A stretch of 64,000 nt of DNA, taken from contig NZ_CP060632.1 of the NCBI RefSeq assembly GCF_014337155.1, positions 1,185,001 to 1,249,000 of the forward strand, written 5' to 3'. Each line of letters begins with the position of its first letter. Positions within the stretch are counted from its first letter, which is position 1. Below are positions 8,917 through 60,753 of the stretch, in pieces. The notes beneath the pieces are model-generated. The model was not told the origin of the DNA. It saw only the letters and a list, made by a program, of their open reading frames with translations, and ran no database searches. The DNA is from Wujia chipingensis. GTDB taxonomy: Bacteria > Bacillota > Clostridia > Lachnospirales > Lachnospiraceae. The translations under genes and the position numbers were made by a program.

Positions 8917-10557
8917 ATGATGGATGAATTTGAGAATAACAGAGAAAATGAACATGTGGATCAGACACCACATGCGGAGACACCGTATGACACCGGAGAT
9001 GGTAATACGGATAATTTGAAGCGTACTGAACAGCAAACAGAACAGCATGCAGAGCATAGACAGGAGGATGCCTATACACAGGCACAGCAGTATGGAAGTA
9101 CTTACTACGGTGATATGCGTACACAGGAATATATGCAGGCGATGGCAGAACGTGCCCAGCAGATGAGCCAGGGTACCGAGCATTATTATAATAACAATTA
9201 CCAGCAGCCGAATCAGAATGCATATAATTATGGACAGAACAATTATTATCAGAACGGTTTCCAGAATGCAGACGCAGAACAGCCAAAGGCAAAGGTAAAG
9301 AAAGCAAAGAAACAGAGAGTCAAGAAAGCAAAATCACCGAAGACGCCACATAACAAGCGTACCTTCTGGAAGAAGGGTGTGGCAGTTGTTGCAAGTGCAG
9401 CCGTATTTGGTGGTGTTGCAGGTGGTGCATTCTACGGAATCGCCGGAAACCAGATCAAGAAGCTTGATGCACTTACAAACACAACGACAGAGGTCGCTTC
9501 CACAACATCGGCAGCGACAACCCAGTCTTTGAGCCTGACATCAACCGCTTCGGTTGGAAATGGCATGGATGTCTCCACAATCGCAGAAAATGTTATGCCA
9601 AGCGTTGTTGCCATTAACATCTCGGCAATCGTGGAGCAGCAGGGTATGTTTGGTTATACACAGCAGTATGAGGCAGAAGGCTCCGGCTCCGGTATTATCA
9701 TCGGTGAGAATGACAGCGAGCTTTTGATGGTGACAAACAACCATGTTGTCAGTGATGCCACAACCGTAAATGTAACGTTTGCAGATGGTGAGAGCTACGA
9801 GGCACAGGTAAAGAGTACCGATAGCGACACGGACCTTGCAATCGTTGTTGTAAAGCTCAGTGATATAAAGGAATCCACGATGAATCAGATCAAGATCGCC
9901 ACGATTGGTGATTCGGATTCCCTGAAGGTCGGTGAACAGGTCGTAGCCATTGGTAATGCACTTGGCTATGGACAATCCGTTACAACCGGTATTGTCAGTG
10001 CAAAGGATCGTACAAACAGCACGAATACAACACCGCTCATTCAGACCGATGCAGCCATTAACCCTGGTAACAGTGGCGGCGCACTTCTGAATATGAAGGG
10101 CGAAGTTATTGGTATTAACTCTTCGAAGTATTCCGATACAACGGTTGAAGGTATGGGATATGCAATTCCAATTACAGCCGTGCAGGATCGTCTGGATGAT
10201 CTGATGAACCGTCAGACACGTGAAAAGGTTGACGAGAGCGAGAAAGGTTATCTTGGAATCTCCTGTGCAACCGTATCTTCCGATGTGTCAGAAGCATATG
10301 GTATTCCAGAGGGCGTGCTTGTCACAGATGTTGCAAGCAAGAGTGCCGCTGAGAAGGCAGGTATCAAAGCAAATTATGTGATTACAAAGATTGATGGACA
10401 ATCCATCAGCAGTGCTGAGGAACTGACAGAAAAGCTGAATTATTATGCAGTTGGTGAGACAGTGCCAATCACATATGAATACCTGAAAGACGATGCGTAT
10501 GTGGAGAAAACTGTCGATGTTACATTGATGGAAAATCCAAACGCAAATAACAAATAA
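8917..10557 (+). CDS. htrA: HtrA/DegP-like membrane-anchored serine protease with PDZ domain
   Basis: About 546 residues. A long hydrophilic N-terminus rich in Gln, Asn, Tyr and Lys (1-145) leads into one membrane helix (about 150-175), placing the protease outside the cell. After a Ser/Thr linker comes the trypsin-like domain with the catalytic triad in TNNHVVSDA, SDTDLAIV and NPGNSGGALLN, then one PDZ domain (about 435-535, GYLGISCATVSSDVSEAYGIPEG). Such proteins degrade misfolded exported proteins. The ATG at 8917 is preferred over the in-frame ATG at 8896, because GGAGGA (8905-8910) lies between them. The cytoplasmic-side tail is longer than usual for the family. A terminator follows, so it is separate from the heat-shock operon. 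Confidence 0.93.
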   Translation: MMDEFENNRENEHVDQTPHAETPYDTGDGNTDNLKRTEQQTEQHAEHRQEDAYTQAQQYGSTYYGDMRTQEYMQAMAERAQQMSQGTEHYYNNNYQQPNQNAYNYGQNNYYQNGFQNADAEQPKAKVKKAKKQRVKKAKSPKTPHNKRTFWKKGVAVVASAAVFGGVAGGAFYGIAGNQIKKLDALTNTTTEVASTTSAATTQSLSLTSTASVGNGMDVSTIAENVMPSVVAINISAIVEQQGMFGYTQQYEAEGSGSGIIIGENDSELLMVTNNHVVSDATTVNVTFADGESYEAQVKSTDSDTDLAIVVVKLSDIKESTMNQIKIATIGDSDSLKVGEQVVAIGNALGYGQSVTTGIVSAKDRTNSTNTTPLIQTDAAINPGNSGGALLNMKGEVIGINSSKYSDTTVEGMGYAIPITAVQDRLDDLMNRQTREKVDESEKGYLGISCATVSSDVSEAYGIPEGVLVTDVASKSAAEKAGIKANYVITKIDGQSISSAEELTEKLNYYAVGETVPITYEYLKDDAYVEKTVDVTLMENPNANNK

Positions 10558-10588
10558 TATTTACAATCATCCGTGATTTTTCTCCCCT

Positions 10589-10616
10589 AAAGAGTGCGGT
10601 TTTCCGCACTCTTTTC
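10589..10616 (+). terminator. Rho-independent terminator after htrA
   Basis: An eleven-base stem, AAAGAGTGCGG with CCGCACTCTTT around TTTT, runs into a T-rich tail. Confidence 0.93.
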
Positions 10617-10664
10617 TTATACATGGAAATACACAATTTTTTCACAAAATTATGATAATTTTCC

Positions 10665-10693
10665 TTGACATTTACTATATGTAGTGGTAGTCT
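10665..10693 (+). promoter_or_regulatory. Sigma-A type promoter of the heat-shock operon
   Basis: TTGACA (10665-10670), 17 bases, then TAGTCT with an extended -10 TGG just before it. The predicted start lies immediately upstream of the CIRCE operator, so HrcA binding would block transcription. Confidence 0.75.
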
Positions 10694-10703
10694 ACCAATA
10701 GGG

Positions 10704-10730
10704 TTAGCACTCGATAGATATGAGTGCTAA
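10704..10730 (+). promoter_or_regulatory. CIRCE operator
   Basis: TTAGCACTC-N9-GAGTGCTAA is a perfect match to the CIRCE consensus bound by HrcA. It lies just before hrcA, so HrcA represses its own operon. Confidence 0.98.
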
Positions 10731-10750
10731 TAAATAAAAGAGGTGATAAG

Positions 10751-11803
10751 ATGGAATTAGATGAGCGTAAGGTAAAAATCCTGAAAGCCATTATTTCCAA
10801 TTACCTAGAGACTGGGGAACCGGTAGGTTCCAGAACAATCTCAAAGTACACGGATCTGAATTTAAGTTCCGCTACGATTCGTAACGAGATGGCAGATCTG
10901 GAGGAAATGGGATACATTATTCAGCCACATACATCGGCAGGACGGATTCCGACAGATGCCGGATACCGGTTCTATGTCGATCAGCTGATGGATGAAAAGG
11001 AAGAGTTTGCAGAGGTTGCAAAGCAGGAGCGTGACACACTGTTAGAGCGGGTGGATCGCATGGAGGTGCTCTTAAAGCAGGTTGCAAAGGTACTGGCGTA
11101 CAATACCAATTATGCAACGATGGTAACAGCACCAAATTATGAGAAAACAGTCAAGTTTATCCAGCTTTCCCTTGTTGATGAAAAAACACTTCTTGCCGTC
11201 ATAGTGGTTGAGGGTAACATTATTAAGAATCAGATGATTCACATCAATGTAAGCCTTGATAATGAAGATGTTCTGAAATTTAATATCTTATTGAATACCT
11301 TCTTACAGGGTGCAAGCTTAGAAGACATCAATTTAGAGATGATTCAGGCGATGAAGAAGCAATCCGGAGGGTATGGCGAGATATTAGACCAGATCTTTCA
11401 GGGAATTGTGGAAGCGATACATGAGGCACAGGAACTTGAGGTTTATACCAGCGGTGCGACAAACATTTTGAAGTATCCGGAGCTTGGAGATATCTCCAAG
11501 ACGAGTGAGCTGCTTGAAAAGCTGGAAGATAAAAATGAAGTATCACATTTGCTGGAAGAGACGACCGGAAAGACAAACGAATCCGGAATTCAGGTATATA
11601 TTGGAGATGAGACACCAAGCCTGAAAGATTGCTCTCTTGTTACAGCGACCTACCAGATGCCGGAAGGCGCAAAGGGAACGATTGGAATATTGGGACCGAA
11701 GAGAATGGATTATAAGAAGGTTGTCAGCACACTGAAGAATCTGACAATTGAACTCGATGAGATATTCAAGAAAGGCGAAGGGGTGAATGAGAATGGCCAA
11801 TAA
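10751..11803 (+). CDS. hrcA: Heat-inducible transcription repressor HrcA
   Basis: A 350-residue protein with an N-terminal winged helix (residues 1-75: ILKAIISNYLETGEPVGSRTI, SSATIRNEMADLEEMGYI, PHTSAGRIPTDAGYRFYVD) that is diagnostic for HrcA, then the GAF-like dimerisation core and the C-terminal YKKVVSTLKNLTIELDEIF. It binds the CIRCE element 20 bases upstream and is stabilised by GroE chaperonins in known systems. The ATG at 10751 has AGAGGTG upstream; a GTG at 10724 in the same frame is inside the CIRCE half-site and is rejected. Its 3' end overlaps grpE by 17 bases. No groESL is present in the window. Confidence 0.97.
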   Translation: MELDERKVKILKAIISNYLETGEPVGSRTISKYTDLNLSSATIRNEMADLEEMGYIIQPHTSAGRIPTDAGYRFYVDQLMDEKEEFAEVAKQERDTLLERVDRMEVLLKQVAKVLAYNTNYATMVTAPNYEKTVKFIQLSLVDEKTLLAVIVVEGNIIKNQMIHINVSLDNEDVLKFNILLNTFLQGASLEDINLEMIQAMKKQSGGYGEILDQIFQGIVEAIHEAQELEVYTSGATNILKYPELGDISKTSELLEKLEDKNEVSHLLEETTGKTNESGIQVYIGDETPSLKDCSLVTATYQMPEGAKGTIGILGPKRMDYKKVVSTLKNLTIELDEIFKKGEGVNENGQ

Positions 11804-12446
11804 GACAAATGTAAATGCAAATAAAGAAGCGGAGACAGTCGAGGAAGTAAAGGCTGTGGATGATGCTCCGGTAACAGAAGGAACCGACGTGAAGGTGAAC
11901 GAGGAAGAAACTGTTCCGGCAGACAAGAAAGAAGAAGTGGAAGCTGCAAAGCCGAAGCCGGTATCCAAGGGAAACCGCAGAGGCAGCAAGGCCCTTCAGC
12001 TGGAACTTGAGAAAGCGAAGGAGCTGGCAGCCGGAAACGAAGAAAAGTATAAGCGTCTGCTGGCAGAGTTTGAGAATATGCGCCAGCGTAACGAGAAGGA
12101 ATCCAAGAAGATGTATGATATCGGAGCCAAGGAAGTTTTAGAGAAGCTGCTTCCGGTTGTTGACAACTTGGAACGTGCACTTTCCAGTATTCCGGAAGAG
12201 GATATGGACCGGGCATTTGAACAGGGTGTCGATAAAATCTACCGGCAGCTCATGGTATCACTTGAGGGACTTGGCGTAAAGCCGATGGATGCAGAAGGCA
12301 AGCCATTTGATCCGGATTACCATAATGCGGTAACACATGTAGAGGATGAGAATTACGGAGAGAATGTCGTAGCCGAAGAGATGCAGAAAGGCTATATGTA
12401 CAAGGATCAGGTATTGCGATACAGCATGGTAAAGGTTGCAAATTAA
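11787..12446 (+). CDS. grpE: Nucleotide exchange factor GrpE
   Basis: A 219-residue protein. The first 65 residues are a disordered Lys/Glu/Val-rich tail. The long helix with LAEFENMRQRNEKESKKMYDIGAKEVLEKLLPVVDNLERAL and the C-terminal beta domain (HNAVTHVEDENYGENVVAEEMQKGYMYKDQVLRYSMVKVAN) are the GrpE signature. It promotes ADP release from DnaK. Translation begins within the end of hrcA (ATG 11787, or ATG 11793 two codons on), suggesting translational coupling. Second gene of the CIRCE operon. Confidence 0.97.
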   Translation: MRMANKTNVNANKEAETVEEVKAVDDAPVTEGTDVKVNEEETVPADKKEEVEAAKPKPVSKGNRRGSKALQLELEKAKELAAGNEEKYKRLLAEFENMRQRNEKESKKMYDIGAKEVLEKLLPVVDNLERALSSIPEEDMDRAFEQGVDKIYRQLMVSLEGLGVKPMDAEGKPFDPDYHNAVTHVEDENYGENVVAEEMQKGYMYKDQVLRYSMVKVAN

Positions 12447-12478
12447 CCTTTTACAATAAATCAATCAGCATATTTTAA

Positions 12479-14350
<1,872 letters not shown>

Positions 14351-15586: not shown

Positions 15587-16591
15587 ATGATGTGGACAAA
15601 ACTGACCATCGATACAACGGTGGAAGCTGTTGATCTCATCTCTGCATTCTTGGATGAAAAGGGTGTGGAAGGTGTGATGATAGAAGATCATGTGCCACTT
15701 ACCGAGGAAGATAAGGCTGCTATGTTTGTGGATATCCCGCTGGTTGATGGCGTGGATGATGGAACGGCAAAGGTTTCCTGCTACATAGATGACTCTTTCA
15801 ATATAGAAACGTTAAGGGCGGATATAGCTGCAGAGCTTACCCGCCTTGAAGCGTTTATACCGGTAGGCAGCAAGAATATAACACTCTCGAATACAGAGGA
15901 CAAAGACTGGATGAACAACTGGAAGCAGTTCTTCCATCCGATCCGTCTCTATGATGATATTGTCATCAAACCAACATGGGAGACGGTGGAAGATGCGAAG
16001 CCAGATGACATCGTGATCGAGATCGATCCGGGGATTGCATTTGGTACCGGATCGCATGAGACGACGAAACTTTGTATCGGACAGTTAAAGAAATATTTAA
16101 AGCCGGGCGATATGGTGTTTGATGTCGGCTGTGGAAGTGGTATCTTATCCATGATCGCATCAAGGCTTGGAGCAGGCTTTGTACATGGCATGGATATTGA
16201 TGAGCTGGCTGTGCGGGCAAGTGAGGAAAATGCGAAACTCAATCATATGGGCGAAGATAAGATCAAGTTCTCGTGTGGCAATCTGCTTGCAGATAATTAC
16301 ATTGGAAAGGGAACAACCTTCCAGCTTGACCGTTCGACGATCAAGGAGACACAGCACCTTGATGTAGACAGACAGTATGATATCGTTGTTGCCAATATTC
16401 TGGCAGACGTGATCGTGCCGCTCTCTGCGGTAATCGGCCCATATTTGAAGGACGATGGATATTTTATTACATCTGGAATTCTGGATGTGAAAGAAAACGA
16501 TGTTACAGATGCGATGAAGGCGAATGGATTTGAAGTCATCGATGTTGTGCATATGAATGATTGGGTATCCGTGATCGGAAGAAAGAAATAA
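15587..16591 (+). CDS. prmA: Ribosomal protein L11 methyltransferase PrmA
   Basis: A 334-residue SAM-dependent methyltransferase. After an N-terminal substrate-recognition domain comes the class I fold with PGIAFGTGSHETTKLC, motif I VFDVGCGSGILSMIASRLGA and the catalytic-region NILADVIVPL. The family trimethylates several amino groups of L11. At 334 residues it is slightly longer than common homologues, owing to an inserted hydrophilic stretch (about residues 240-260) before YDIVVANILA. prmA following dnaJ is a conserved Firmicutes order. Two consecutive ATGs (15587, 15590) are possible starts. Confidence 0.96.
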   Translation: MMWTKLTIDTTVEAVDLISAFLDEKGVEGVMIEDHVPLTEEDKAAMFVDIPLVDGVDDGTAKVSCYIDDSFNIETLRADIAAELTRLEAFIPVGSKNITLSNTEDKDWMNNWKQFFHPIRLYDDIVIKPTWETVEDAKPDDIVIEIDPGIAFGTGSHETTKLCIGQLKKYLKPGDMVFDVGCGSGILSMIASRLGAGFVHGMDIDELAVRASEENAKLNHMGEDKIKFSCGNLLADNYIGKGTTFQLDRSTIKETQHLDVDRQYDIVVANILADVIVPLSAVIGPYLKDDGYFITSGILDVKENDVTDAMKANGFEVIDVVHMNDWVSVIGRKK

Positions 16592-16617: not shown

Positions 16618-18345
16618 ATGATTGAAAGTCCGTCAAATCGCAGTATGAGTAACACCCGGTGTTTAAAGCCGGGTGTTATTTTAAAAGAGCGATATAAAAT
16701 TGAAGAGGTGATCGGGGCAGGTGGATTCGGAATCACATACCGTGCATGGGATCCGCTCTTACAGTCGTATGTTGCAATCAAGGAGTATTATCCGTCCGGG
16801 ATTGCGACGCGGAGCGCAGATTCGTCGAAGGTCTGTGTGCCGGTTGGACAGGAGCAGCGGGAATACCATCGGGGAAGAATTCGCTTTTTAAAAGAAGCGC
16901 AGGATGTGGCGCGGTTTCAGTCGGAGCCCAATATTGTAAGCATCTATGATTATCTGGAGGAAAATGATACTGCCTATATGGTCATGGAGTATCTGCATGG
17001 CTGTACGCTGAAACAATACATTCGGGAGCATGGAGGACGGCTGGATACGGATCATATCCTCCATATCTGTCTGTCGGTGTTGGACGCACTTGCAGTTGTT
17101 CACAAGGCGGGCATGATTCACCGAGATATCAGTCCGGAGAATATTTTTATCTGTGAGGATCTGACCGTCAAGCTGATCGATTTCGGCGCGGCAAAGCAGG
17201 TGTATCTCGATGGGGAACAGACGATGTCGGTTGTCTTAAAACCGGGATATGCACCGCCAGAGCAGTATGCAAAAAAGGATAAACAGGGACCGTGGACAGA
17301 CATCTACGCGCTTGGTGCGACACTTTATTTTGCGGCGACCGGAGAGAAGCCGGAGGAATCGTTTGGACGTGTACTGGAGGATACGATAAAGCCAGTCTGT
17401 GAGGTGAACCCGGAGATCCCGCGTGCAATGTCGCAGGTGATCATGCGTGCGATGTCAGTAAAGATTGAGGACCGCTACCAGACGGTGGAGGCAATGCGGG
17501 AGGCATTGCTTGCCGGAGAGGGGCAGAATGCGCAGATGGAGCCGTATGTGATCCCAGCATCCCGGATTTCAAAGCGGGATTTGCCGAAGAAACGGGGCTT
17601 TCTGATTGGTGTAGCTTTCTGTATCGTAATTATGCTTGTAGTGACAGGAATCTGGATGGCGGGGCGTGTAGCGAAGAAGGCAGGGACGGCAACAGCAACT
17701 GAAATGAATGCAGCATCGACAGAGGCGCAGACAGCAACGATGGCGGATGCACAGACTGCCACGGACGCTGAACAGGCAGCAACAGAGGCGGAGAAAACGA
17801 CACAGGCGGACAATCCGATGGTTATGCATGTGCCAACGAAGGAGGAGCTTGCCGAGCAGGAAAAATCCGATGCGATCCTGAATATCACGTCCTCGGAGAC
17901 GGAACGCGTCAGTATTGATGCATTTGAATATATGAAGGATGGAAATCAGGGATACAGGATGGAATCCGCAGATGGTCTGGCGGCGGTTGCATATGAGGGA
18001 GACTGCGTAAAACTCTGCTTAAAGTATTATGACAGCATTCTGGGGGATACGCCGCAGGTGACAGATGATTTGATCTATTCCTATACCTTTGAACGATATG
18101 ATTCCGACTATGGAATATACCGGGCAATCTATGATGCGGATGATACATCGGGTTACTGGGACTATGCAACTTTATATCCGCCAGAGTTTCATTTTGCAGA
18201 TGATTCCTTTACATTGTATATTCCGCTTACTTCGGGGCTGGAGGATGGAAGGTACAAGCTATATTTTTCTTACGAAGATCCTGCTACACAGAAATCGGTG
18301 TTTCAGGCGACAATTGAATTTTATCTGAACAGGAGCGCGATGTAA
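16618..18345 (+). CDS. Membrane Ser/Thr protein kinase with extracellular C-terminal domain
   Basis: About 575 residues. A Hanks-type kinase domain lies at about 27-290: Gly loop VIGAGGFGITYRAWD, Lys in VAIKEYYPSG, catalytic HRDISPENIF, Mg-binding DFGAAK and PGYAPPEQY. A basic segment precedes one membrane helix at about 326-348 (FLIGVAFCIVIMLVVTGIWMAG). An Ala/Thr/Glu-rich linker (350-405) then leads to a roughly 165-residue external domain that I do not recognise; there are no PASTA repeats. The ATG at 16618 follows GGGGAG, and a longer frame reaching back into prmA is rejected. The next genes downstream encode LytTR regulators, one with an FHA domain, a natural phospho-threonine reader, so this kinase may head a small signalling unit. 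Confidence 0.93.
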   Translation: MIESPSNRSMSNTRCLKPGVILKERYKIEEVIGAGGFGITYRAWDPLLQSYVAIKEYYPSGIATRSADSSKVCVPVGQEQREYHRGRIRFLKEAQDVARFQSEPNIVSIYDYLEENDTAYMVMEYLHGCTLKQYIREHGGRLDTDHILHICLSVLDALAVVHKAGMIHRDISPENIFICEDLTVKLIDFGAAKQVYLDGEQTMSVVLKPGYAPPEQYAKKDKQGPWTDIYALGATLYFAATGEKPEESFGRVLEDTIKPVCEVNPEIPRAMSQVIMRAMSVKIEDRYQTVEAMREALLAGEGQNAQMEPYVIPASRISKRDLPKKRGFLIGVAFCIVIMLVVTGIWMAGRVAKKAGTATATEMNAASTEAQTATMADAQTATDAEQAATEAEKTTQADNPMVMHVPTKEELAEQEKSDAILNITSSETERVSIDAFEYMKDGNQGYRMESADGLAAVAYEGDCVKLCLKYYDSILGDTPQVTDDLIYSYTFERYDSDYGIYRAIYDADDTSGYWDYATLYPPEFHFADDSFTLYIPLTSGLEDGRYKLYFSYEDPATQKSVFQATIEFYLNRSAM

Positions 18346-18360
18346 TTCGCGCTCCTGTTT
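18328..18360 (+). terminator. Terminator overlapping the end of the kinase gene
   Basis: A perfect 13-base stem (AACAGGAGCGCGA with TCGCGCTCCTGTT) carries the TAA stop codon in its six-base loop. The final codons are thus part of the stem. Confidence 0.85.
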
Positions 18361-18369
18361 GCATAAAAG

Positions 18370-18491
18370 CGTAAGATATACCAAATTTTACAAATTTTTG
18401 TATATTATTTGCATTTTTTGTTTGAGATTCCTCGCTTTTGTTAAGATGTGTTCAATCCATATTTGTAAATAAAACGTAAATTATACCGAAT
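18370..18491 (+). repeat. Two direct 17-base repeats upstream of the LytTR genes
   Basis: CGTAAGATATACCAAAT at 18370-18386 and CGTAAATTATACCGAAT at 18475-18491 agree at 14 of 17 positions and start exactly 105 bases apart, about ten helical turns. The stretch between is very AT-rich and holds no ORF. LytTR proteins bind paired direct repeats, so these are candidate operators for the two regulators that follow. A weak promoter (TTGATG, 16 bases, TATTTA at 18519-18546) sits just after the second copy. Confidence 0.5.
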
Positions 18492-18583
18492 ATATAGCCA
18501 AATTAGCAGGATTCAGTTTTGATGGTATTTTTTATGATACTATTTATAAAATGAATATTTGGGACTGGGGAAGAGAACAAACG

Positions 18584-19294
18584 ATGAAAATTGGAATTTG
18601 CGATGACCGTTATGAAATACGGCACAAAGTAAAGGAAATATTACAGGAAACATATACAGAGGAACAAGGATTCTTAATTCATTCATATACTCCAAACGAA
18701 ATAAAAATTGATATCGAAGATATGGTATTTGACTGTGAAATCCTGATCATGAATACGGATTATCCAGAGAGCGGCTTGCGGGGGGTGGCGATTGCCAAGC
18801 AGATCAATGCAGCATTTCCATTTTGTAAGATTATCTATCTGACCGAGAATGAAAATGCAATCAAGGATGTGTATGAGACCAATCATTGCTATTTTGTCCG
18901 GCAAAAGGATGCAGATCAAGTCATGGAGCTTGCAATGCAAAAAGCCGTTAATATGGTAAAGCAGGATACGGCGCGGAAATCACTGGAGATTATCTGTGAC
19001 GGGCATCATGTATTTATCAATCGTCCGGATATTATTTATATCGAGAAGTGTGGAAGAACCATTAAAATCGTGACGCGGTTCCGGGAATACACCAGTTACA
19101 AGTCATTGGCAGGCATCCGCAAAATGCTGGGAGACAATATGATACGTGTGCATGGTGGATATGTTGTGAATTTGACGTATATCACTTATTTAGGTGTGGA
19201 AACGCTGGAAGTACAGAATGGAAAGACAATCCCGATCGGCAGGACATACGACAAAGAAGTCAGAAAAGCCTATCAGGAATATTGGAAAAAATAA
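18584..19294 (+). CDS. LytTR-type regulator with degenerate receiver domain (Asp to Asn)
   Basis: A 236-residue protein laid out as an AgrA/ComE-type regulator: a receiver-like domain (1-120) and a LytTR DNA-binding domain (about 135-236: IYIEKCGRTIKIVTRFREY, MIRVHGGYVVNLTYI). The acidic pocket CDDR is present. At the usual phospho-acceptor position, four residues before the Pro of DYPES, there is Asn57 (IMNTDYP), and the usual Lys-Pro pair is replaced (FVRQKD). It therefore should not be activated by ordinary aspartyl phosphorylation. ATG 18584 with GGGGAAG upstream is preferred over an in-frame ATG at 18551. Next to it are a second degenerate LytTR gene and a Ser/Thr kinase; no histidine kinase is present. 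Confidence 0.85.
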   Translation: MKIGICDDRYEIRHKVKEILQETYTEEQGFLIHSYTPNEIKIDIEDMVFDCEILIMNTDYPESGLRGVAIAKQINAAFPFCKIIYLTENENAIKDVYETNHCYFVRQKDADQVMELAMQKAVNMVKQDTARKSLEIICDGHHVFINRPDIIYIEKCGRTIKIVTRFREYTSYKSLAGIRKMLGDNMIRVHGGYVVNLTYITYLGVETLEVQNGKTIPIGRTYDKEVRKAYQEYWKK

Positions 19295-19310
19295 AAGAAC
19301 ATGGTAAAAT
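19282..19310 (+). promoter_or_regulatory. Promoter of the LytTR-FHA gene
   Basis: TTGGAA, 17 bases, TAAAAT. It overlaps the stop codon of the preceding gene, and the predicted start point falls inside the terminator stem that follows. A transcript begun here would therefore not form the complete hairpin and would escape it. Confidence 0.65.
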
Positions 19311-19342
19311 AAAAATCGAGTATGTAAATACTCGATTTTTTT
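19311..19342 (+). terminator. Terminator between the two LytTR genes
   Basis: AAAAATCGAGTAT pairs with ATACTCGATTTTT around GTAA, followed by further T residues. The A-tract and T-tract are symmetrical, so it could also act on the other strand. Confidence 0.85.
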
Positions 19343-19358
19343 ATGTGAGGACAAAACG

Positions 19359-20423
19359 ATGTTGCGAATTGGAATCTGTGATGAAAATACGAAAGACCGG
19401 ACGGTAATCCGACAGATTGTGACGGACACATTGTTCCGGGAAGAAGAATTAAGCTATATTGAATATGCGGAAGCAGAGACATTGGAACAGGAGATACAGG
19501 CAAGTACAGTGCCGTTTGATCTGTTGCTAATGGAAATGAAATATAAAAATACAAGTGGGTTACAGCTGGCAAAGCAGATACGGGAGAAAAATCTGGATGT
19601 TGATCTGCTGTTTGTAACAGATGAGTCAGATCATGTGTATGAAGGCTATCATGTGCAGGCACAGGGATATGTCTTAAAAGAAGATATGAAGACACAGCTT
19701 CCAGACTGTCTGCGGCAATATATGAAACGACGGGCGCAGACTGGTACGATTCTTGTGAAATCAGAGTCGGTTGTGCGCAGTATTCCGATTGCCACAATCC
19801 GCTATATAGAAAGCCGCGCCAGAGTGCTGTTGTTACATACAAAAAACGAAGTGATTCCATTTTATGGAAAGCTGGCGGATATTGAACATAAGGTGTTACA
19901 ACATGGATTTGTGCGTATCCATCAGAGCTTTCTTGTACGGAAGGCCGCGATTGCAGCAATCAATGGATATGAGGCCGTTGTCGGGGAGGATACGCTTCCA
20001 ATCAGCCGGAAATATTATAAAACGGTGCAGATGCAGTTTCAGCTCAAGCAGAAGATACAGGTGGCAGAGGAGGATATAGATCCGACAGTCACACGGAGTC
20101 TGGCGAAAAGCATGGAAAATAATGGCGCAATCATTGGAACAAAGGGCGAGTTGCTTGGAATCATCTACCGCATGAAAGATGGTGAAAGTCTGACGATTGG
20201 CAGAGATGCCGAAAAATGTCAGATCGTGCTGAAAAAATCCAACGTGAGCCGGGAACACTGTATTGTAAGACGGCTTGACGATGACACCTATGAAGTGGAG
20301 GACTGCTCAAAAAATGGTGTCTATGTGGAAGGTGCCTATCTTGGAAAAGGAAATAAGGTACAGGCGGAGACCGGAAACCGGGTATGGCTGTGTGATGAAT
20401 CACAGGAATTTCGATTGGGATAG
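19359..20423 (+). CDS. Receiver-like/LytTR/FHA three-domain regulator
   Basis: A 354-residue protein with three parts. The receiver-like domain (1-120) has Glu59 at the phospho-acceptor position (LLLMEMKYKNTSG), an Asp-to-Glu change that often mimics phosphorylation. The LytTR domain spans about 130-235 (IRYIESRARVLLLHTKNEV, FVRIHQSFLVRKAAI). The C-terminal FHA domain (about 262-352) shows all key residues: TIGRDAEKC, NVSREHC and CSKNGVYVEG. FHA domains bind phospho-threonine peptides, and a membrane Ser/Thr kinase lies three genes upstream; a regulatory link is inferred. RBS GTGAGGA precedes the ATG. Fusing FHA to LytTR is, to my knowledge, uncommon. Confidence 0.88.
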   Translation: MLRIGICDENTKDRTVIRQIVTDTLFREEELSYIEYAEAETLEQEIQASTVPFDLLLMEMKYKNTSGLQLAKQIREKNLDVDLLFVTDESDHVYEGYHVQAQGYVLKEDMKTQLPDCLRQYMKRRAQTGTILVKSESVVRSIPIATIRYIESRARVLLLHTKNEVIPFYGKLADIEHKVLQHGFVRIHQSFLVRKAAIAAINGYEAVVGEDTLPISRKYYKTVQMQFQLKQKIQVAEEDIDPTVTRSLAKSMENNGAIIGTKGELLGIIYRMKDGESLTIGRDAEKCQIVLKKSNVSREHCIVRRLDDDTYEVEDCSKNGVYVEGAYLGKGNKVQAETGNRVWLCDESQEFRLG

Positions 20424-20444
20424 TGGAAAGCGGGAGTGAGACAA

Positions 20445-20606
20445 ATGATCATAAAATGTGAAAAGGGAAAACATTACTATAACACAGTGGAGCATAGTGT
20501 GTGTCCATTTTGTGTACAGGTGGAGAAAAAGATAAATGAGCAGAAAAGTGAATTAAATAAACAGGAAGATGAATCTATTTGTATAACGGAAACAACAGAT
20601 CTGTAA
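20445..20606 (+). CDS. 53-residue zinc-ribbon-like peptide
   Basis: A small gene with ATG at 20445 and TAA at 20604, preceded by GGGAGTGAG at good spacing. The peptide begins MIIKCEKGKHYYN and continues VCPFC, giving a C-x-H/Y-C-x2-C arrangement like the short zinc ribbons that open many FHA, kinase and von Willebrand proteins in Clostridia (form KC-x-GHYY-CPxC). The second half is a charged Lys/Glu/Gln-rich tail with one more Cys. Here the ribbon is a free peptide, 21 bases after the FHA gene, so it probably belongs to the same unit. Function unknown; coding status is supported by ribosome site, motif and context rather than length. Confidence 0.7.
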   Translation: MIIKCEKGKHYYNTVEHSVCPFCVQVEKKINEQKSELNKQEDESICITETTDL

Positions 20607-20689: not shown

Positions 20690-21436
20690 ATGCCAAGGTT
20701 TTATGTGGAAGGATGTCAGGATGCACAGACTGGTATTACGATTATGGGAGAAGATGTGAACCATATAAAAAATGTATTGCGTTTGACAATCGGAGATACC
20801 ATTACTGTGTGTGATGGTGCTGGAAAAGAGTATGAGTGTGAGATCGCGGAGATATCCAAAGAGCAGGTATATGCAAATATCGTAGATATCAATCAGAATG
20901 CAGCAGAACTTCCGTGTAATATCACATTGTTTCAGGGAATGCCAAAATCAGATAAAATGGAATTTATCATCCAGAAGGCGGTAGAACTTGGAGCAGCCGG
21001 GATTGTTCCGGTTATGATGAAACGGACTGTCGTGAAACTTGAAGATAAGAAGAAAGACAAAAAAAGAGAACGTTATCAGATGATTGCGGAGTCTGCGGCG
21101 AAACAGTCCGGACGAGGTATAATTCCTGAAGTCACCGGATTTATGTCATTTCGTGAAGCACTTCAATATGCAGGAAAGTTTGACCTGCTGATTGTACCGT
21201 ATGAGAGTGCGGATGGAATTGCATACGCAAGGGAGATAATTGCACAGGCATCAAACCTTCCAGACGGCGCGAATATCGGAATTTTTATCGGACCGGAAGG
21301 TGGATTTGCAAAAGAAGAAATTGATGTAGCAAAGGAAGCTGGTGCGAAGATTATCACATTAGGAAACCGGATTTTGCGGACAGAGACTGCAGGGCTTGCA
21401 GTTTTATCTATTTTGATGTTCCAAATGGAGCAGTAG
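20690..21436 (+). CDS. rsmE: 16S rRNA (uracil-1498-N3)-methyltransferase RsmE
   Basis: A 248-residue SPOUT-class methyltransferase of normal length. The N-terminal PUA-like domain includes HIKNVLRLTIGDTITVCDG. The C-terminal knot carries IGPEGGFAKEEIDVAKEAGAKIITLGNRILRTETAGLAVLS, which is diagnostic. It methylates U1498 in the decoding region of 16S rRNA using SAM. In many Firmicutes rsmE follows prmA directly; here the two are split by the kinase/LytTR/FHA block, which suggests that block was inserted between them. AGGAGG is 11 bases before the ATG. Confidence 0.97.
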   Translation: MPRFYVEGCQDAQTGITIMGEDVNHIKNVLRLTIGDTITVCDGAGKEYECEIAEISKEQVYANIVDINQNAAELPCNITLFQGMPKSDKMEFIIQKAVELGAAGIVPVMMKRTVVKLEDKKKDKKRERYQMIAESAAKQSGRGIIPEVTGFMSFREALQYAGKFDLLIVPYESADGIAYAREIIAQASNLPDGANIGIFIGPEGGFAKEEIDVAKEAGAKIITLGNRILRTETAGLAVLSILMFQMEQ

Positions 21437-49348: not shown

Positions 49349-49948
49349 ATGGCAGAGTTAGTATATAGCGCAGGACTTACATCAAAATTATTCTGGTTAC
49401 AGGAGTCCAGAAAGACCGCAGGATATATCCTGGATGGATATAGTAAGGCGGATATCCGCAAGATAGCCTGGAAAGAGAATATCTATCAGGTAAAAGCAGA
49501 ATATCGAGCTCATGAGGTATTGAATGGTACTTATCGTAGAGTAGCTACTTTACCGGAAGCAGTGCTTCAGACTTTTACCACTTGTGATGTGGAGACAGCA
49601 AAGATTTTAAACTTAATTGCAATTCTCATGGATAGCCGGCTATTTTTTGAATTTCTTCATGAAGTATATGTTGAAAAAATCAGGCTTGGTGAAAAAGAAA
49701 TCACAGATAGGGATTTGAATGTATTCTTTTCTGATAAAGCATTGCAGAGTGATGTTGTGGCAGGATGGACGGACACAGCTGTACGCAAATTAAAACAGTG
49801 CTTCGCAAGAATGATGTTTGAAGCGGGATTGCTTGAAAGTAGTGTAAAACCAAGAATAATCAAGCCAATTCACATTGACTATCGCACAGAGGAATTGTTG
49901 ATTGCAAATGGACTGGGAGAATACTTGAAAGCTGTGAAAGGAGCCTGA
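49349..49948 (+). CDS. brxA: BREX protein BrxA (DUF1819)
   Basis: A 199-residue protein matching the DUF1819/BrxA family by size and pattern: YSAGLTSKLFWLQESRKTAGYILDGYSKADIRKIA at the N-terminus and FARMMFEAGLLESSVKPRIIKP near the end. BrxA is a small DNA-binding component of BREX phage-defence systems. It is followed at once by brxB and brxC, the standard type 1 order. Identification rests on both sequence and order. Confidence 0.88.
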   Translation: MAELVYSAGLTSKLFWLQESRKTAGYILDGYSKADIRKIAWKENIYQVKAEYRAHEVLNGTYRRVATLPEAVLQTFTTCDVETAKILNLIAILMDSRLFFEFLHEVYVEKIRLGEKEITDRDLNVFFSDKALQSDVVAGWTDTAVRKLKQCFARMMFEAGLLESSVKPRIIKPIHIDYRTEELLIANGLGEYLKAVKGA

Positions 49949-49950
49949 AT

Positions 49951-50538
49951 ATGGCAAAGTTAAGTTTGGATGATAGACTGAACCAGATAGAAGACATAAT
50001 ATCAGAAAAGTCGTTTAGAGAGAATAAAGGACTTGGAAATGAAGTCGGATATTATATATTCGATTATGATCCAAGAGAGGAGCTGTATGTGAGAAATCAT
50101 ATAGCGTATCTTAAAGATAGAATAAACAATGGAAACAAGGATTTCAGAATAGTTGAGTTTGATCTGTTTCATTTGATGATTGAGATATTGCAGGAGGAAG
50201 GGTATCTGGACGCATTCTTTGATTTAGAAAAAGAGAATGGATTTTTTGAGATGGCAGACAGCCTTGTAGAGACTTTGGGACTGGATGAGACAAATGAGCT
50301 GAATCTAATCATATCAAGAATATTGCAGGAAGATTTGACAGACAGTGTGGTATTTCTTACCGGAGTAGGCAAGTGCCATCCTATTATAGCCAGCCATAAT
50401 ATATTGAATAATTTACATCAGGTGCTTGACACTGTGCCAGTTGTGCTTTTTTATCCGGGAGAATATAGTGGACAGGATTTAAAGCTATTTGGGACTATGG
50501 ACTCACGCAATTATTACAGAGCGTTCCGTTTAGTGTAG
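49951..50538 (+). CDS. brxB: BREX protein BrxB (DUF1788)
   Basis: A 195-residue protein of the DUF1788/BrxB family, with LSLDDRLNQIEDIISEKSFRENKGLGNEVGYYIFDYDP at the start and VVFLTGVGKCHPIIASHNILNNL and VPVVLFYPGEYSGQDLKLFG later. It starts two bases after brxA stops. The molecular role is unknown, but it is essential for defence in tested BREX systems. Confidence 0.88.
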   Translation: MAKLSLDDRLNQIEDIISEKSFRENKGLGNEVGYYIFDYDPREELYVRNHIAYLKDRINNGNKDFRIVEFDLFHLMIEILQEEGYLDAFFDLEKENGFFEMADSLVETLGLDETNELNLIISRILQEDLTDSVVFLTGVGKCHPIIASHNILNNLHQVLDTVPVVLFYPGEYSGQDLKLFGTMDSRNYYRAFRLV

Positions 50539-50550
50539 GGGAGGAAAACG

Positions 50551-53500
50551 ATGCAGATAAAGAATATGTTTGAGAAGAAGATTGATCGAGATATCAAGGG
50601 CGTTATTAAAGTAGGTCAGTCGGATGAAGAAAATGTATATCAGGAATTAGATGAATATGTAGTGACCAAGGAACTTCTGAAGCATTTCAGAGATTTCTTC
50701 AACAATTATGAAAAGGGTGTAGATGGATATACAGATAAGATGGGTGTCTGGATTTCCGGATTCTTTGGAAGTGGTAAATCTCACTTCTTAAAAATACTGT
50801 CTTATTTATTAAAAAACAGCACAGTAGAGGGTAAAAGAGCTATTGAGTATTTTACAGATGGTAAAAAGATAGAAGATCCGATGCTTATTGCAGAGATGAC
50901 AAAGGCTGGAACAATTGAGTCAGATGTCATGCTTTTCAATATTGATTCAAAAGGTTCTGCAAAGGTAGGCTCCGGCAAGGAGGCTATCGTTGAAGTGTTT
51001 ATGAAGGTGTTCAATGAGATGCAGGGATATTGTGGTTCCATTCCTTATCTTGCAGAATTTGAACGTCAGTTGGATAACGAGGGCAGATTTGAAGAGTTCA
51101 AAGAGAAGTTCGAGGCAAATGCAGGTGCACCTTGGGAGAAAAAGAGACAGGCATTTGCAGTTATTCAGGATAAAGTAGTAAAGACATTAGTCGAGATGAA
51201 TTTCATGAGTGAGGAGGCAGCCCGTAACTGGTGCAAGAATGCAAAGGGTAACTATGACCTCAGTATCGAGAAGTTTGTATCACTTGTGCAGGAGTATTGT
51301 GCGAAGAAAGGACCAAATCATCATGTTATCTTCTTAGTTGATGAGATCGGTCAGTATATTGCAGATGACACACAGCTTATGCTCAACCTCCAGACAATCG
51401 TGGAAGACCTTGGAACAGCCTGCAAAGGTAAGGCATGGGTTATCGTAACAAGCCAGGAGGATATTGATTCTATTACAAAAACAAAGGGAAATGACTTCTC
51501 TAAGATTCAGGGACGTTTTGATACGAGACTTTCTCTTTCAGCATCCAATGTTGACGAAGTAATCCGTAAGCGTGTGCTTGCAAAGAACGAGACAGCAACA
51601 CAGATACTCAGACTGCTCTATGAGCAGAAAGAATCTATTATTAAGAATCTTATTACATTTACAGCGGATACAGCAGATAAGAAGCTGTATGCAGATAAGG
51701 CAGATTTTGCAGACTGCTATCCGTTCATACCATATCAGTTCAATCTTTTGGGACAGGTACTTACTGCTGTCAGAACACATGGTGCAAGTGGAAAGCATCT
51801 GTCTGATCAGTCACGTTCTATGCTTGCACTGTTTCAGGAGTCAGCAATCAGAGTAATGGATAAAGAGGATGGGGTATTGGTTCCGTTTAGCTTCTTCTAT
51901 GATCCATTACATAAATTTATTGACCACCAGCACAGTCAGGTAATCTCAGATGCAGAGAATAATAATAAGCTGGATGAATTCGATGTAGAGCTTTTGAAAG
52001 TTCTCTTTATGATTAAATATGTCAAGGAAATCAAGGCGAATGTGGACAACCTTACTACGCTTATGATTTCAAACATTGATGATGACAGAATTGAAGTCCG
52101 TTCTAAGATTGAAGAGGCATTAAAGAAACTGATCAAAGAGACACTTGTACAGAAAAATGGTGAAATATACATTTTCCTGACAAATGAGGAGCAGGAAATC
52201 AATAATGCCATTAATAACGAGTCAGTAGAGATGGGAGAAATCATCGGAGAGGCTTCGACAGTTATCTTTGAGGAAATTTATACAGAGAAGAAATACAGAT
52301 ACAGCAACAGATATCTGTTTGCATTTAATCAGAAAGTAGATGACCGATTCTTCAAGGGCAATCAGTCTAACGATATCGGAGTGACAGTAATTACATCTTA
52401 TGGCGGAGATTATGCAGACTCTGCACTTCGTCTTCTCTCAACACAGGAAAACAGTGTGATTGTGAAGCTGCCCAATGATAGTACATTCCTTGATGAGATT
52501 ACAGAATCCATCAAGATATATAAATTCCTTAATAAAAATGCGCCCAGTGCTAGAGGCAGCTTTGACAGTATCCGCAGGGCAAAAGAGGATGAGCGTATTG
52601 AGAAGAAAGACAGAATCCGAATCTTTATTGAGGATGCATTAAAGAATGCTGATATCTATGTAAATGGTGATAAGGCAACTATTTCAGCTAAGGAGCCGGC
52701 AACAAGAATCAATGAAGCACTTGGTAAGCTCGTAGCAATGAAATACAATAAGCTTACATATATGGAGACAGCACCTGAGCTTTCAGATATCAGTGCTATC
52801 TTTAAGCATAGCGATGGTCAGATGAGTTTCCTTGGCACAAGTGATACCACACCGAATAAGCTTGCATTAGAGGAAGTGGTACAGGTAATCGGATTAAATA
52901 ATGCCAGACATATGAAGACATCCCTTAAGTCATTACAGGATAAGTTTGGTGCAGCACCGTATGGATTTGATCCAAAGGATGTGCAGTGGCTTGTTGCAAT
53001 GTTGTTCAAGCTGGGAAGAGTGTCTCTTACTCTTAACAGTCAGAGCTTGTCATTACTTTCAACGAATCCGGATGAATTAGTTAGATATATTACAAAGCGT
53101 GAATATGTAGAGAAACTCTTGGTAGACATCAGAGAAAGAGCAACGGACGGACAGATTCGTTCTGCAAAAGAAGTTATGAAGGATTACTTCGGATTTACTG
53201 TATCCAGTGATGATGATGACAAAATCATGAGCAGCTTCAAGAACAGAGCCAAGGATATAGTCAAAGTATATGATGACATCCTTGTAGAGTACCGAATCAA
53301 TCCGCAATATCCTTGTAAGAGACTGATGGAAGAGGCAAGAAAGAGACTTGCAGAAATTCTTGATATCAATGAGCCTACAGAGTTCTTCAAGACAGTAGAT
53401 AAGAAGAAAGATGACCTGTTAGATGATGCAGAGGATACTGCACCCGTATTTGACTTCTTTAAGGGAGATCAGAGAAAAATTTTTGAAGCGGCAGTGAAGA

Positions 53501-54141
53501 ACCTTGTATATTTTGGAAACAGCAAGACATATGTAAGTGACCAAGAGCTGTTAAAAGTAGTTGAAGAGATAGAGACTATCGTGGAGGACAGCAAGCCTTT
53601 CGGTAAGATTCAGAGATTGCCGGAATTGAACAAGAGGTTTGAAGACCTTCATATGGGATTGCTTGAAAAGGAAGCAGCCATCATGGATCCATTAGTACAT
53701 GATGACTTCCTTAAAGTGAAAGAGGTATTGGATACCAAGCCATTTGCTGAGGTACTTCGTCCGCGTATTAATCAGAGGTTTGAAGAAATCTGGGATAAGC
53801 TGAAAAAATCAAATGATATAGCTGCAATTAAGAATATCAAGCTGGAAAGTGATACTTTGAAAATTAAGTGTCTGGATGAGATTGATGAATATGAGAGGGC
53901 ACATCAGCCTGCACCGGAACCACCTGTTGCACCGGTAGTACCGGGTAAAGAGCCGGTTAGTCCTACACCAGCACCGACTAAAGTAAAGACAAAGAGACGT
54001 AAGAATGTTTCCATCAGTAATGTAGCAGGGGCTAGAACATATTCGATTGAGACCGAGCAGGATATTGATAAGTTCCTTTCCGAGATGAAGCAGAAACTGA
54101 TGGATGAACTGGAAGAAGACACAATCATTACATTGAGCTGA
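50551..54141 (+). CDS. brxC: BREX P-loop ATPase BrxC
   Basis: A 1196-residue protein, standard for BrxC. Near the N-terminus MGVWISGFFGSGKSHFLKILSYLL holds the Walker A motif (about residues 67-78). HHVIFLVDEIGQYIADDTQLMLNLQTIVEDLG is the Walker B region, and WVIVTSQEDIDSIT a sensor-like strand. The second half is helical, ending in a Pro-rich linker (PAPEPPVAPVVPGKEPV) and a C-terminal helix. BrxC is an AAA-like ATPase related to origin-recognition proteins. RBS GGGGAGG precedes the ATG. Confidence 0.95.
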   Translation: MQIKNMFEKKIDRDIKGVIKVGQSDEENVYQELDEYVVTKELLKHFRDFFNNYEKGVDGYTDKMGVWISGFFGSGKSHFLKILSYLLKNSTVEGKRAIEYFTDGKKIEDPMLIAEMTKAGTIESDVMLFNIDSKGSAKVGSGKEAIVEVFMKVFNEMQGYCGSIPYLAEFERQLDNEGRFEEFKEKFEANAGAPWEKKRQAFAVIQDKVVKTLVEMNFMSEEAARNWCKNAKGNYDLSIEKFVSLVQEYCAKKGPNHHVIFLVDEIGQYIADDTQLMLNLQTIVEDLGTACKGKAWVIVTSQEDIDSITKTKGNDFSKIQGRFDTRLSLSASNVDEVIRKRVLAKNETATQILRLLYEQKESIIKNLITFTADTADKKLYADKADFADCYPFIPYQFNLLGQVLTAVRTHGASGKHLSDQSRSMLALFQESAIRVMDKEDGVLVPFSFFYDPLHKFIDHQHSQVISDAENNNKLDEFDVELLKVLFMIKYVKEIKANVDNLTTLMISNIDDDRIEVRSKIEEALKKLIKETLVQKNGEIYIFLTNEEQEINNAINNESVEMGEIIGEASTVIFEEIYTEKKYRYSNRYLFAFNQKVDDRFFKGNQSNDIGVTVITSYGGDYADSALRLLSTQENSVIVKLPNDSTFLDEITESIKIYKFLNKNAPSARGSFDSIRRAKEDERIEKKDRIRIFIEDALKNADIYVNGDKATISAKEPATRINEALGKLVAMKYNKLTYMETAPELSDISAIFKHSDGQMSFLGTSDTTPNKLALEEVVQVIGLNNARHMKTSLKSLQDKFGAAPYGFDPKDVQWLVAMLFKLGRVSLTLNSQSLSLLSTNPDELVRYITKREYVEKLLVDIRERATDGQIRSAKEVMKDYFGFTVSSDDDDKIMSSFKNRAKDIVKVYDDILVEYRINPQYPCKRLMEEARKRLAEILDINEPTEFFKTVDKKKDDLLDDAEDTAPVFDFFKGDQRKIFEAAVKNLVYFGNSKTYVSDQELLKVVEEIETIVEDSKPFGKIQRLPELNKRFEDLHMGLLEKEAAIMDPLVHDDFLKVKEVLDTKPFAEVLRPRINQRFEEIWDKLKKSNDIAAIKNIKLESDTLKIKCLDEIDEYERAHQPAPEPPVAPVVPGKEPVSPTPAPTKVKTKRRKNVSISNVAGARTYSIETEQDIDKFLSEMKQKLMDELEEDTIITLS

Positions 54142-54166
54142 TAAGCTTGATTGGAGGATATAGCTC

Positions 54167-57883: not shown

Positions 57884-57904
57884 TGTAAAAGGAGTACTGT
57901 TGTT

Positions 57905-58660
57905 ATGAATTTACAAGACAAATTAATAAAATTATACAATGAGATTGATGAATTAAAAAATAAAAAAAGTTCTAGTGATAGTGATTTTAAAGCATGGAGA
58001 ACAGATGTACAATTATGTCTTTCTGGTCTTTATGGTGAAAAAAGTATTCAACTTAAAAATTTTAATAACCGACCATTTTCCCCAATGGTAATTGTTGGAA
58101 ATACTGATTTTCATGAACCATATGTGCGAGATTTGGAGACTACAAAGAAAGAATTTGAAAGATATATTGGTGATTTTGAGGATGTAAGCACAGATACCAA
58201 TGTGAAAAATCACATTTCAGTAAATAACAAGGTGTTTATTGTTCATGGTCATGATGGTGAACTAAAAGAGAAGGTCGCTAGGAGATTAGAACAACAAGGT
58301 ATTGAAGCAATAATCCTTAGCGAGCAAGCTAATAGAGGAAAAACGATAATTGAAAAAATAGAAGCATATTCAGATGTACATATGGCAATTGCATTATTTA
58401 CACAAGATGATATTGGAGTGGACAAGGAAGAAAAAGGAAACGAAAAATATAGGGCTAGGCAGAATGTCGTTTTCGAAGCGGGCTATTTTATGGGATATTT
58501 AGGTAGAGAGAATGTAATTATGATTGCAGAAGAAAATCTTGAAATTCCAGGGGATTTATCAGGGATGGTATATACAACAAAAGACAACTGGGAATTCGAA
58601 ATGTTAAAGGAACTTAATGCTGCAGGAATGAAAATTGATATGAATAAACTACTTGGCTAA
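57905..58660 (+). CDS. TIR-like nucleotide-binding protein (PF10137 type)
   Basis: A 251-residue protein. After a helical N-terminal part of about 110 residues comes KVFIVHGHDGELKEKVARRLEQQGIEAIILSEQANRGKTIIEKIE. Later are MAIALFTQDDIGV, the catalytic-type Glu in RARQNVVFEAGYFMGYLGRENV, and VYTTKDNWEFEMLKEL. This is the PF10137 TIR-like domain used as an NAD-degrading effector in some antiphage systems. The N-terminal sensor part is unrecognised. The gene is AT-rich and lies 21 bases after pglX, inside the BREX operon, so it may be a companion suicide effector. Confidence 0.85.
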   Translation: MNLQDKLIKLYNEIDELKNKKSSSDSDFKAWRTDVQLCLSGLYGEKSIQLKNFNNRPFSPMVIVGNTDFHEPYVRDLETTKKEFERYIGDFEDVSTDTNVKNHISVNNKVFIVHGHDGELKEKVARRLEQQGIEAIILSEQANRGKTIIEKIEAYSDVHMAIALFTQDDIGVDKEEKGNEKYRARQNVVFEAGYFMGYLGRENVIMIAEENLEIPGDLSGMVYTTKDNWEFEMLKELNAAGMKIDMNKLLG

Positions 58661-58664
58661 ATAG

Positions 58665-59036: not shown

Positions 59037-59052
59037 GCAGGAGGTTAGGCGA

Positions 59053-60555: not shown

Positions 60556-60609
60556 AAAGAAACGATTTAATAGATACAATTGGTTATTTAATGGATGCTG
60601 GCAGCTATT

Positions 60610-60683
60610 TACTGGATACAAAGTATTCAATAAGTATCCAGTAGTATCCGATAAGTATCCATTAGTGACCACTTATTGGATAC
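60610..60683 (+). repeat. Cluster of five GTATCC motifs in direct and inverted order
   Basis: TACTGGATAC (60610-60619) is inverted to GTATCCAGTA (60634-60643). Further GTATCC copies occur at 60644 and 60655, and the reverse form TGGATAC at 60677-60683. Two nested inverted repeats in 74 bases form an operator-like cluster between the AlbA_2 gene and pglZ. Confidence 0.7.
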
Positions 60684-60711
60684 TATTTATCATACTGATT
60701 AAATAAATGTG

Positions 60712-60736: not shown

Positions 60737-60753
60737 AGATTAGAAGGTGAAAT

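Follow-up and report, generated by a model that had tools for sequence, protein, structure and literature searches.

What controls a LytTR-type transcriptional regulator when the gene beside it encodes a Ser/Thr kinase rather than a histidine kinase? The question arises in a stretch of 64,000 nucleotides from Wujia chipingensis (contig NZ_CP060632.1, positions 1,185,001 to 1,249,000; "the window" below), in which genes for a membrane Ser/Thr kinase, a first receiver (REC)-LytTR regulator (RR1), a second one fused to an FHA domain (RR2), and a zinc-ribbon protein of 56 residues all lie on the forward strand between prmA and rsmE (Table 1). A sequence-only reading had described this gene set, including Asn57 and Glu59 in place of the receiver Asp of RR1 and RR2, and every element is present as described. 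It had also noted the lack of a histidine kinase, and neither a GHKL profile nor a HisKA/HATPase query finds one among the longest non-overlapping open reading frames (ORFs) of the window, where other kinase types were not annotated window-wide. Its proposal was a hybrid of kinase/FHA and LytTR signaling in which the kinase replaces aspartyl transfer.

Comparison of related loci gives the first part of the answer. We scanned genomes using 19 aligned RR2 relatives and took the best 80 of 428 loci by similarity to RR2, which tblastn matches divide into 24 loci where FHA is fused to the LytTR gene or follows it (FHA loci) and 56 FHA-less loci. The kinase and GHKL profiles were built from the loci themselves, the latter from 21 seeds found with a looser pattern after a first histidine kinase pattern proved too strict (two ORFs), and the three of these 21 that were checked by Pfam are all HATPase_c_5. 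When flanks of up to 8 kb are counted, 21 of the 24 FHA loci but only 1 of the 56 FHA-less loci contain a related Ser/Thr kinase, whereas a GHKL histidine kinase is present in 0/24 versus 46/56; within 3 kb of the REC-LytTR gene the corresponding values are 18/24 versus 1/56 for the kinase and 0/24 versus 37/56 for GHKL. Fisher p-values for these comparisons are 4e-15, 7e-12 and 8e-13, for loci that are not fully independent (the regulators of L004/L007, L009/L011 and L037/L074 are >60% identical, and L126 repeats L012). A kinase is missing from three FHA loci, L005, where the contig ends ~1.6 kb past the gene, L013, where it ends 83 bases past it, and L067, on a 4.8-kb contig. Twelve further loci (11 fetched stretches and the window, several from the same genomes) include nine with the kinase and none with GHKL, and a HisKA-type kinase occurs in two further loci, L118 and L119. 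Hence, in the FHA-linked group of LytTR regulators, a Ser/Thr kinase stands in the place usually held by a histidine kinase. Kinase and FHA-LytTR genes that never occur together, one of two outcomes that the sequence-only reading had named as counting against it, are at odds with these numbers.

Such loci are carried by members of the Lachnospiraceae and of other Clostridia, of which many come from animal gut samples according to their record titles, and the RR2 cluster represents 1487 member sequences in a protein search. An RR2 match at 1e-30 is found in 6 of 397 sampled genomes of the family, and a full-length RR2 of the near clade in two of the 37 genomes of the genus, G001 (92%) and G422 (59%). 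Both of these, the only other near-clade genomes found, repeat the order kinase, RR1, RR2, short zinc ribbon (loci L001 and L116), and the arrangement is thus more than chance. In five others of the genus (G401, G404, G414, G416 and G417), a REC-LytTR gene lies next to an FHA piece that is not fused to it. At the class level, a profile search scoring at most five candidates per genome matched 67 of 391 genomes, and the rows listed, G001 aside, end at residue 247 or earlier, which corresponds to REC-LytTR without FHA. A phage origin was rejected, as viral contigs hold no RR2 relative in a search limited to close relatives.

The kinase matches Pfam Pkinase (E 5.1e-38, residues 26-294) and its motifs are complete, with a Gly loop (GAGGFG), the catalytic Lys (VAIK), HRDISPEN, DFG and APPE. 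Hydropathy gives a single hydrophobic stretch, a predicted transmembrane segment at about residues 327-349, followed by a Thr-rich stalk and a beta-rich extracytoplasmic domain. The model of this ectodomain (residues 356-575), made from three rows, has a predicted local distance difference test score (pLDDT) of 60 and no match in the PDB at E ≤0.001, and beta-rich is all that can be said of its predicted fold. By sequence, the nearest solved kinase is PpkA (5hnv). Matches to defense kinases in PADLOC, such as PD-T4-6, were set aside since they fall mostly within the kinase domain. Hypervariability of the kinase was likewise rejected: among the best 120 of 947 relatives, listed as separate clusters, the 107 that are 575 residues long differ by <0.6% from P0001, which is strain or read noise and reveals no variable domain.

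The regulators depart from the canonical pattern at the receiver. RR1 has a LytTR domain (E 1.7e-14) and a receiver that falls under the Pfam cut-off, with Gln at the receiver Lys position, while in RR2 only REC, LytTR and FHA exceed the cut-off (Response_reg 3.8e-9, LytTR 4.9e-17, FHA 8.8e-14) and D8-E9, T87 and K107 are retained around Glu59. Both have the LytTR DNA-binding domain of AgrA/LytTR response regulators and neither has their phosphate-accepting receiver Asp. The phosphosite is Glu in 12 and Asp in 2 of 14 near-clade RR2 proteins, Asp in five and Glu in three of eight more distant fused REC-LytTR-FHA proteins, and Asn in 15, Asp in 4, Glu in 2 and a gap in 1 of 22 RR1 rows, the window copy included. 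A broader alignment (E 1e-15, at least 190 residues) of 40 control rows and 24 FHA-locus rows, to which L001 contributes two, L067 none and L069 one without letters at the site, gives Asp in 39/40 controls versus 19/24 FHA-locus rows versus 10/18 further-locus rows; four Asp-bearing rows (L037, L041, L065 and L074) lack the acid pair and Thr. Judged from these alignments, loss of the receiver Asp recurs and is commoner here than in controls, yet it is not defining for the system and is mainly a trait of the window's own clade. The sequence-only reading had taken Asp-less receivers as the mark of the system, and this is not supported, as receivers with a normal Asp, the other outcome that it had named as refuting it, are frequent at the family level. 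What stands of its hybrid is the conserved pairing and the lack of GHKL kinases in FHA loci, and a bypass of aspartyl transfer would fit the window clade but does not extend to all relatives. One RR2 of 479 residues, P0005, has by eye an internally repeated receiver stretch, perhaps an assembly artifact.

The second part of the answer concerns the FHA domain and the linker that precedes it. Five FHA pocket residues, R282, S297, R298, H300 and N319, are invariant in 22/22 rows, and we take them to be the canonical phosphothreonine-contact positions. In an AlphaFold2 model of RR2 built from 22 sequences, receiver, LytTR and FHA are locally confident (mean pLDDT 82) and residues 229-252 form a predicted disordered linker (pLDDT <50), in which invariance across all 14 near-clade proteins, the window's included, is confined to T243 and T245. 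S247 is kept in 13/14 and position 248 holds L, V or M in 12/14, giving the motif T-x-T-[RK]-S-L. The pattern [VIL]T[RK]S[LI], with an aliphatic residue at +3 of the motif Thr, also occurs near the N-terminus of 16/16 stand-alone FHA proteins encoded directly 3′ of a REC-LytTR gene, a set that was chosen, once the motif was known, for its position next to the regulator gene, that includes identical members (L121 and L122) and some from the same genome, and that leaves FHA ORFs further from the regulator (e.g., L006:1989-2573) outside the count. The best Foldseek match of the RR2 model is full-length ComE (4cbv, E 2.6e-14). To our knowledge, ComE has no FHA domain and its gene is not linked to that of the Ser/Thr kinase StkP. 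Fold matches of the FHA domain include EmbR (2ff4) and Bdellovibrio DgcB (6hc0/6hc1), which has its own phosphorylated tail. Published accounts of DgcB describe a tail Thr that is read by the protein's own FHA domain and a +3 residue of crucial importance; OdhI and GarA have a phosphorylatable ETTS motif and an FHA domain that docks on autophosphorylated PknG. Like GarA, OdhI and DgcB, the near clade has a conserved Thr in a predicted disordered segment next to FHA, and from the invariant T243/T245, the FHA pocket and these precedents we infer a phosphothreonine switch in RR2, acting in cis or in trans.

We propose, with somewhat better than even confidence, that the locus encodes a Ser/Thr-kinase-gated LytTR regulatory cassette in which the kinase acts on the regulator by way of phosphothreonine and FHA. 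The proposal is built on features read from sequence, namely the gene content, the conserved pairing, the missing histidine kinase neighbor, the intact FHA pocket and the linker motif, and the sensing, phosphorylation, binding and regulatory steps would run as follows. The membrane kinase would sense something extracellular and phosphorylate Thr residues of cytosolic partners, most likely T243/T245 of the RR2 linker and possibly some in the zinc-ribbon protein. The FHA domain of RR2 would then bind phosphothreonine, either in its own linker as in the switch of GarA, OdhI and DgcB, or on the autophosphorylated kinase as in the docking of EmbR to PknH, and this would set DNA binding by the LytTR domain. 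The receivers may serve as dimerization modules, with the Glu of RR2 possibly mimicking phospho-Asp, and RR1, with its inert Asn, may be a partner or competitor at the same operators.

Several observations count against this proposal. The receiver Asp persists in 19 of the 24 FHA-locus rows, and a hybrid HisKA histidine kinase is encoded close to the LytTR/FHA pair in G401 and G404, so that Asp phosphorylation may still operate in the wider family; phmmer with the hybrid HisKA protein gives no match in the 24 FHA loci or the window. RR1 has no FHA domain. The arrangement of domains in the RR2 model is unreliable (predicted template modeling score 0.43), T245 is kept in only 3 of the 8 distant fused proteins (~32% identity), and the linker Thr pattern was not found in the most divergent fused loci. 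Inverted repeats lie 3′ of the kinase gene and between RR1 and RR2, and the four genes may therefore not form a single operon. Lastly, no PP2C phosphatase gene is seen within the window block.

An unlikely alternative is that the FHA domain only recruits RR2 to the autophosphorylated kinase or another phosphoprotein, with no switch in cis, and that regulation acts through a phosphosite of the LytTR domain or the receiver. Both parts have precedents, as StkP of Streptococcus pneumoniae phosphorylates the LytTR-type regulator ComE on Thr128, and EmbR of Mycobacterium tuberculosis needs its FHA domain, which also docks, for phosphorylation by PknH; that ComE is the best fold match of RR2 fits as well. 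Docking of this kind leaves unexplained why T243 and T245 are the sole invariant positions of the linker, and why the motif is shared by all of the adjacent stand-alone FHA proteins. We consider it quite improbable that the regulators are constitutive, Glu59 locking RR2 on and Asn57 locking RR1 off, so that expression level decides while the kinase has other substrates and the FHA domain is a relic. RR2 does look as a phospho-mimic would be expected to, with Glu in place of the phosphorylated Asp and the remaining receiver residues intact, but a relic would hardly retain an FHA pocket that is invariant throughout, and the pairing with the kinase is retained across diverged loci. Least probable is an ordinary two-component regulator whose histidine kinase lies elsewhere and which just happens to be encoded in an FHA/Ser-Thr-kinase cluster. 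Asp, acid pair, Thr and Lys are all present in most FHA-linked receivers and two genomes have the hybrid histidine kinase near LytTR/FHA genes, but both regulators of the window clade lack Asp (save 2 of 14 RR2 proteins) and GHKL kinases are missing from every FHA locus.

The kinase-gated cassette that we favor resembles several known systems without coinciding with any of them. It shares the REC-LytTR output with GHKL-LytTR systems of the AgrC/AgrA type (RR2 versus NF046049 AgrA, 2.2e-13 and 50 bits, cut-off 400) but has a Ser/Thr kinase instead of GHKL, an added FHA domain and, in the window clade, no Asp. With the PpkA-Fha-PppA module of type VI secretion it shares the kinase domain, nearest to PpkA among solved structures, and the joint occurrence of kinase, FHA and PP2C genes in relatives, whereas its output is a transcription regulator. 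Judged by eye, the cluster appears to lack secretion genes. EmbR-PknH likewise combines a DNA-binding regulator, a C-terminal FHA domain and a Ser/Thr kinase partner, but EmbR is a SARP protein (OmpR-type DNA-binding and BTA domains) with neither receiver nor LytTR, and RR2 has no such SARP and BTA architecture. ComE is, like RR2, a REC-LytTR regulator under a Ser/Thr kinase, and differs in also having the histidine kinase ComD. GarA, OdhI and DgcB share the conserved-Thr tail beside FHA, as well as the importance of +3 in DgcB, but the tail is N-terminal, the motif in OdhI and GarA is ETTS, and the effector is a metabolic enzyme or diguanylate cyclase rather than LytTR. Each half of the cassette is known on its own, ComE-StkP providing a LytTR-type regulator under a Ser/Thr kinase and EmbR-PknH an FHA regulator phosphorylated via FHA. 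The hybrid had been put forward as not known as a described system, and this agrees with the literature searched, which covers few subscription papers and in which LytTR is not mentioned jointly with "FHA domain" or "forkhead-associated"; nothing was found there on a kinase/FHA-LytTR cassette either, the zero of one search on the kinase being weak as it misses papers that write "serine/threonine". Within that literature, the conserved FHA-LytTR fusion with its swap of kinase type appears to be undescribed.

The fourth protein of the block also has a place among its relatives. The 56-residue peptide matches a zinc-ribbon profile at E 1e-9 among 756 window ORFs of at least 25 residues (next best 0.084), and a pattern search in relatives finds 29 ORFs of 166-315 residues with an N-terminal ribbon, all three of which that were tested (L004, L037 and L042) have a Pfam FHA domain. 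The family is present in 15 of 24 FHA loci by pattern, with L065 added by eye, and in some loci its gene is several kb from the regulator. The window peptide ends before any FHA, as do short versions in L001 and L116, and by sequence it is a short form, the N-terminal part, of a zinc-ribbon-FHA partner family; it had been described as a free peptide, and its presence is confirmed while its nature is corrected. The short proteins of these three species have differing tails that all contain a TET triplet, a possible kinase target. REC-LytTR-FHA, zinc-ribbon protein, kinase is the commonest gene order in FHA loci (L003, L004, L007, L008, L011 and L069; 6/24), and others exist. One further ORF family occurs in 10 of the 24 loci, its five members tested by Pfam being BspA-type leucine-rich repeat proteins, and the larger clusters of relatives also hold PP2C phosphatases and zinc-ribbon-FHA, VWA-FHA, CHAP and FHA-ABC proteins, such that we view the window block as a putative minimal form of a larger phosphothreonine signaling cluster. 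The big clusters of L117-L124 have several Ser/Thr kinases with PP2C and FHA-ABC transporter genes, and one of these kinases has a solute-binding-protein-like stretch after the kinase domain.

The block had also been thought to be inserted between prmA and rsmE, and here the evidence is divided. In 6 of the 37 genus genomes (G415, G420, G403, G402, G412 and G407) no more than ~550 bp separate the two genes, which agrees with an insertion, but the cargo of the gap varies and in at least one genome the block seems to have been deleted. By sequence look, the gap holds MBOAT-like genes in G401/G404, a large GTPase-like gene in G405/G409, a small two-gene pair in G413 and one further ORF in G414, and none of the cargo gaps read matches the kinase, RR1, RR2 or the zinc peptide at 1e-3. 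The full block is present in G001 and G422. In G415, whose prmA and rsmE are 97% and 90% identical to those of the window, it is absent, and the 136-bp gap keeps a 57-bp scar matching the RR1-RR2 spacer (alignment score 60 versus ≤26 in 3542 other comparisons), a remnant which suggests that the block was probably lost there. Two insertions flanking an old prmA terminator could also have given this arrangement, deletion being simpler. The 3′ ends of prmA and RR1 share a short A-rich stretch at the G415 junction (by eye, unscored). Overall, prmA-rsmE looks like a site of gene turnover. Recent import was considered on the basis of composition and found no support (GC 0.441 in the block versus 0.437 in the window). 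Among the gap loci L127 and L142-L148, the gap of L146 has a small pair that looks like a toxin-antitoxin system, and L001 has three extra genes at 9309-12674 (MBOAT-like by look, with companions) between the zinc peptide and rsmE, similar in look to the gap genes of G401 and G404.

With regard to the details of the locus, RR1 is taken to start at the ATG given by Table 1, the upstream ATG at 18551 being out of frame in the relative L116. The repeat of the RR1-RR2 spacer is terminator-like to the eye and was not listed by a pattern scan. The non-coding block 5′ of RR1 is strongly kept in three species while the remainder of that spacer drifts, and it is a possible operator; LytTR operator direct repeats were not found in the four spacers scanned, this block included, and the window holds no RNA elements at gathering scores. 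Elsewhere in the window, at 49349-63300, lies a BREX-like defense cassette with BrxA, BrxB, BrxC, PglX and PglZ (PADLOC models), in which the stretch between PglX and PglZ encodes a TIR-like PDC-S35 protein as well as another ORF with a weak match to a prokaryotic Argonaute (pAgo) model.

Table 1. Features of the kinase/LytTR locus and its flanks (window coordinates).
Feature	Position	Strand	Basis
prmA (left flank)	15587..16591	+	Sequence; name from sequence and the sequence-only reading, no family search made on prmA
Membrane Ser/Thr kinase (Hanks type)	16618..18345	+	Pfam Pkinase, motifs, hydropathy
Non-coding block 5′ of RR1, possible promoter/operator	18475..18583	+	High conservation in three species
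RR1: REC-LytTR, Asn57 phosphosite, receiver Lys lost (pseudo-receiver)	18584..19294	+	Pfam, alignment
RR1-RR2 spacer, perfect 13-nt inverted repeat then T	19296..19351	+	Matches scar kept in G415
RR2: REC-LytTR-FHA, Glu59 phosphosite	19359..20423	+	Pfam, alignment, model, fold matches
Codons for TVTRSLA (T243, T245), candidate phosphothreonine motif in RR2 disordered linker 229-252	20085..20105	+	
FHA domain of RR2, residues 256-354	20124..20420	+	Pfam, model, Foldseek
Short zinc-ribbon protein, 56 residues, FHA part missing	20436..20606	+	Profile match
rsmE (right flank)	20690..21436	+	Sequence; name from sequence and the sequence-only reading, no family search made on rsmE

In evolutionary terms, we put forward more tentatively, and at a little under even confidence, that the FHA-linked loci represent a histidine-kinase-free class of LytTR signaling in Lachnospiraceae, in which a Ser/Thr kinase took over a REC-LytTR regulator by means of FHA and a Thr switch motif, at first on separate proteins and then fused, with decay of the receiver Asp to Glu or Asn as the last step. 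Named residues are at hand for tests of these ideas, namely T243, T245, R282 and Glu59. If the class is real, its members would form a series from GHKL-LytTR systems, through LytTR with stand-alone FHA proteins and kinases in which Asp is kept, to the fused FHA form in which Asp is lost, so that Thr would have replaced Asp as the phosphate currency, and a consistent swap to a Ser/Thr kinase with a phosphothreonine reader would show how a two-component output can be rewired to Hanks-type kinases.

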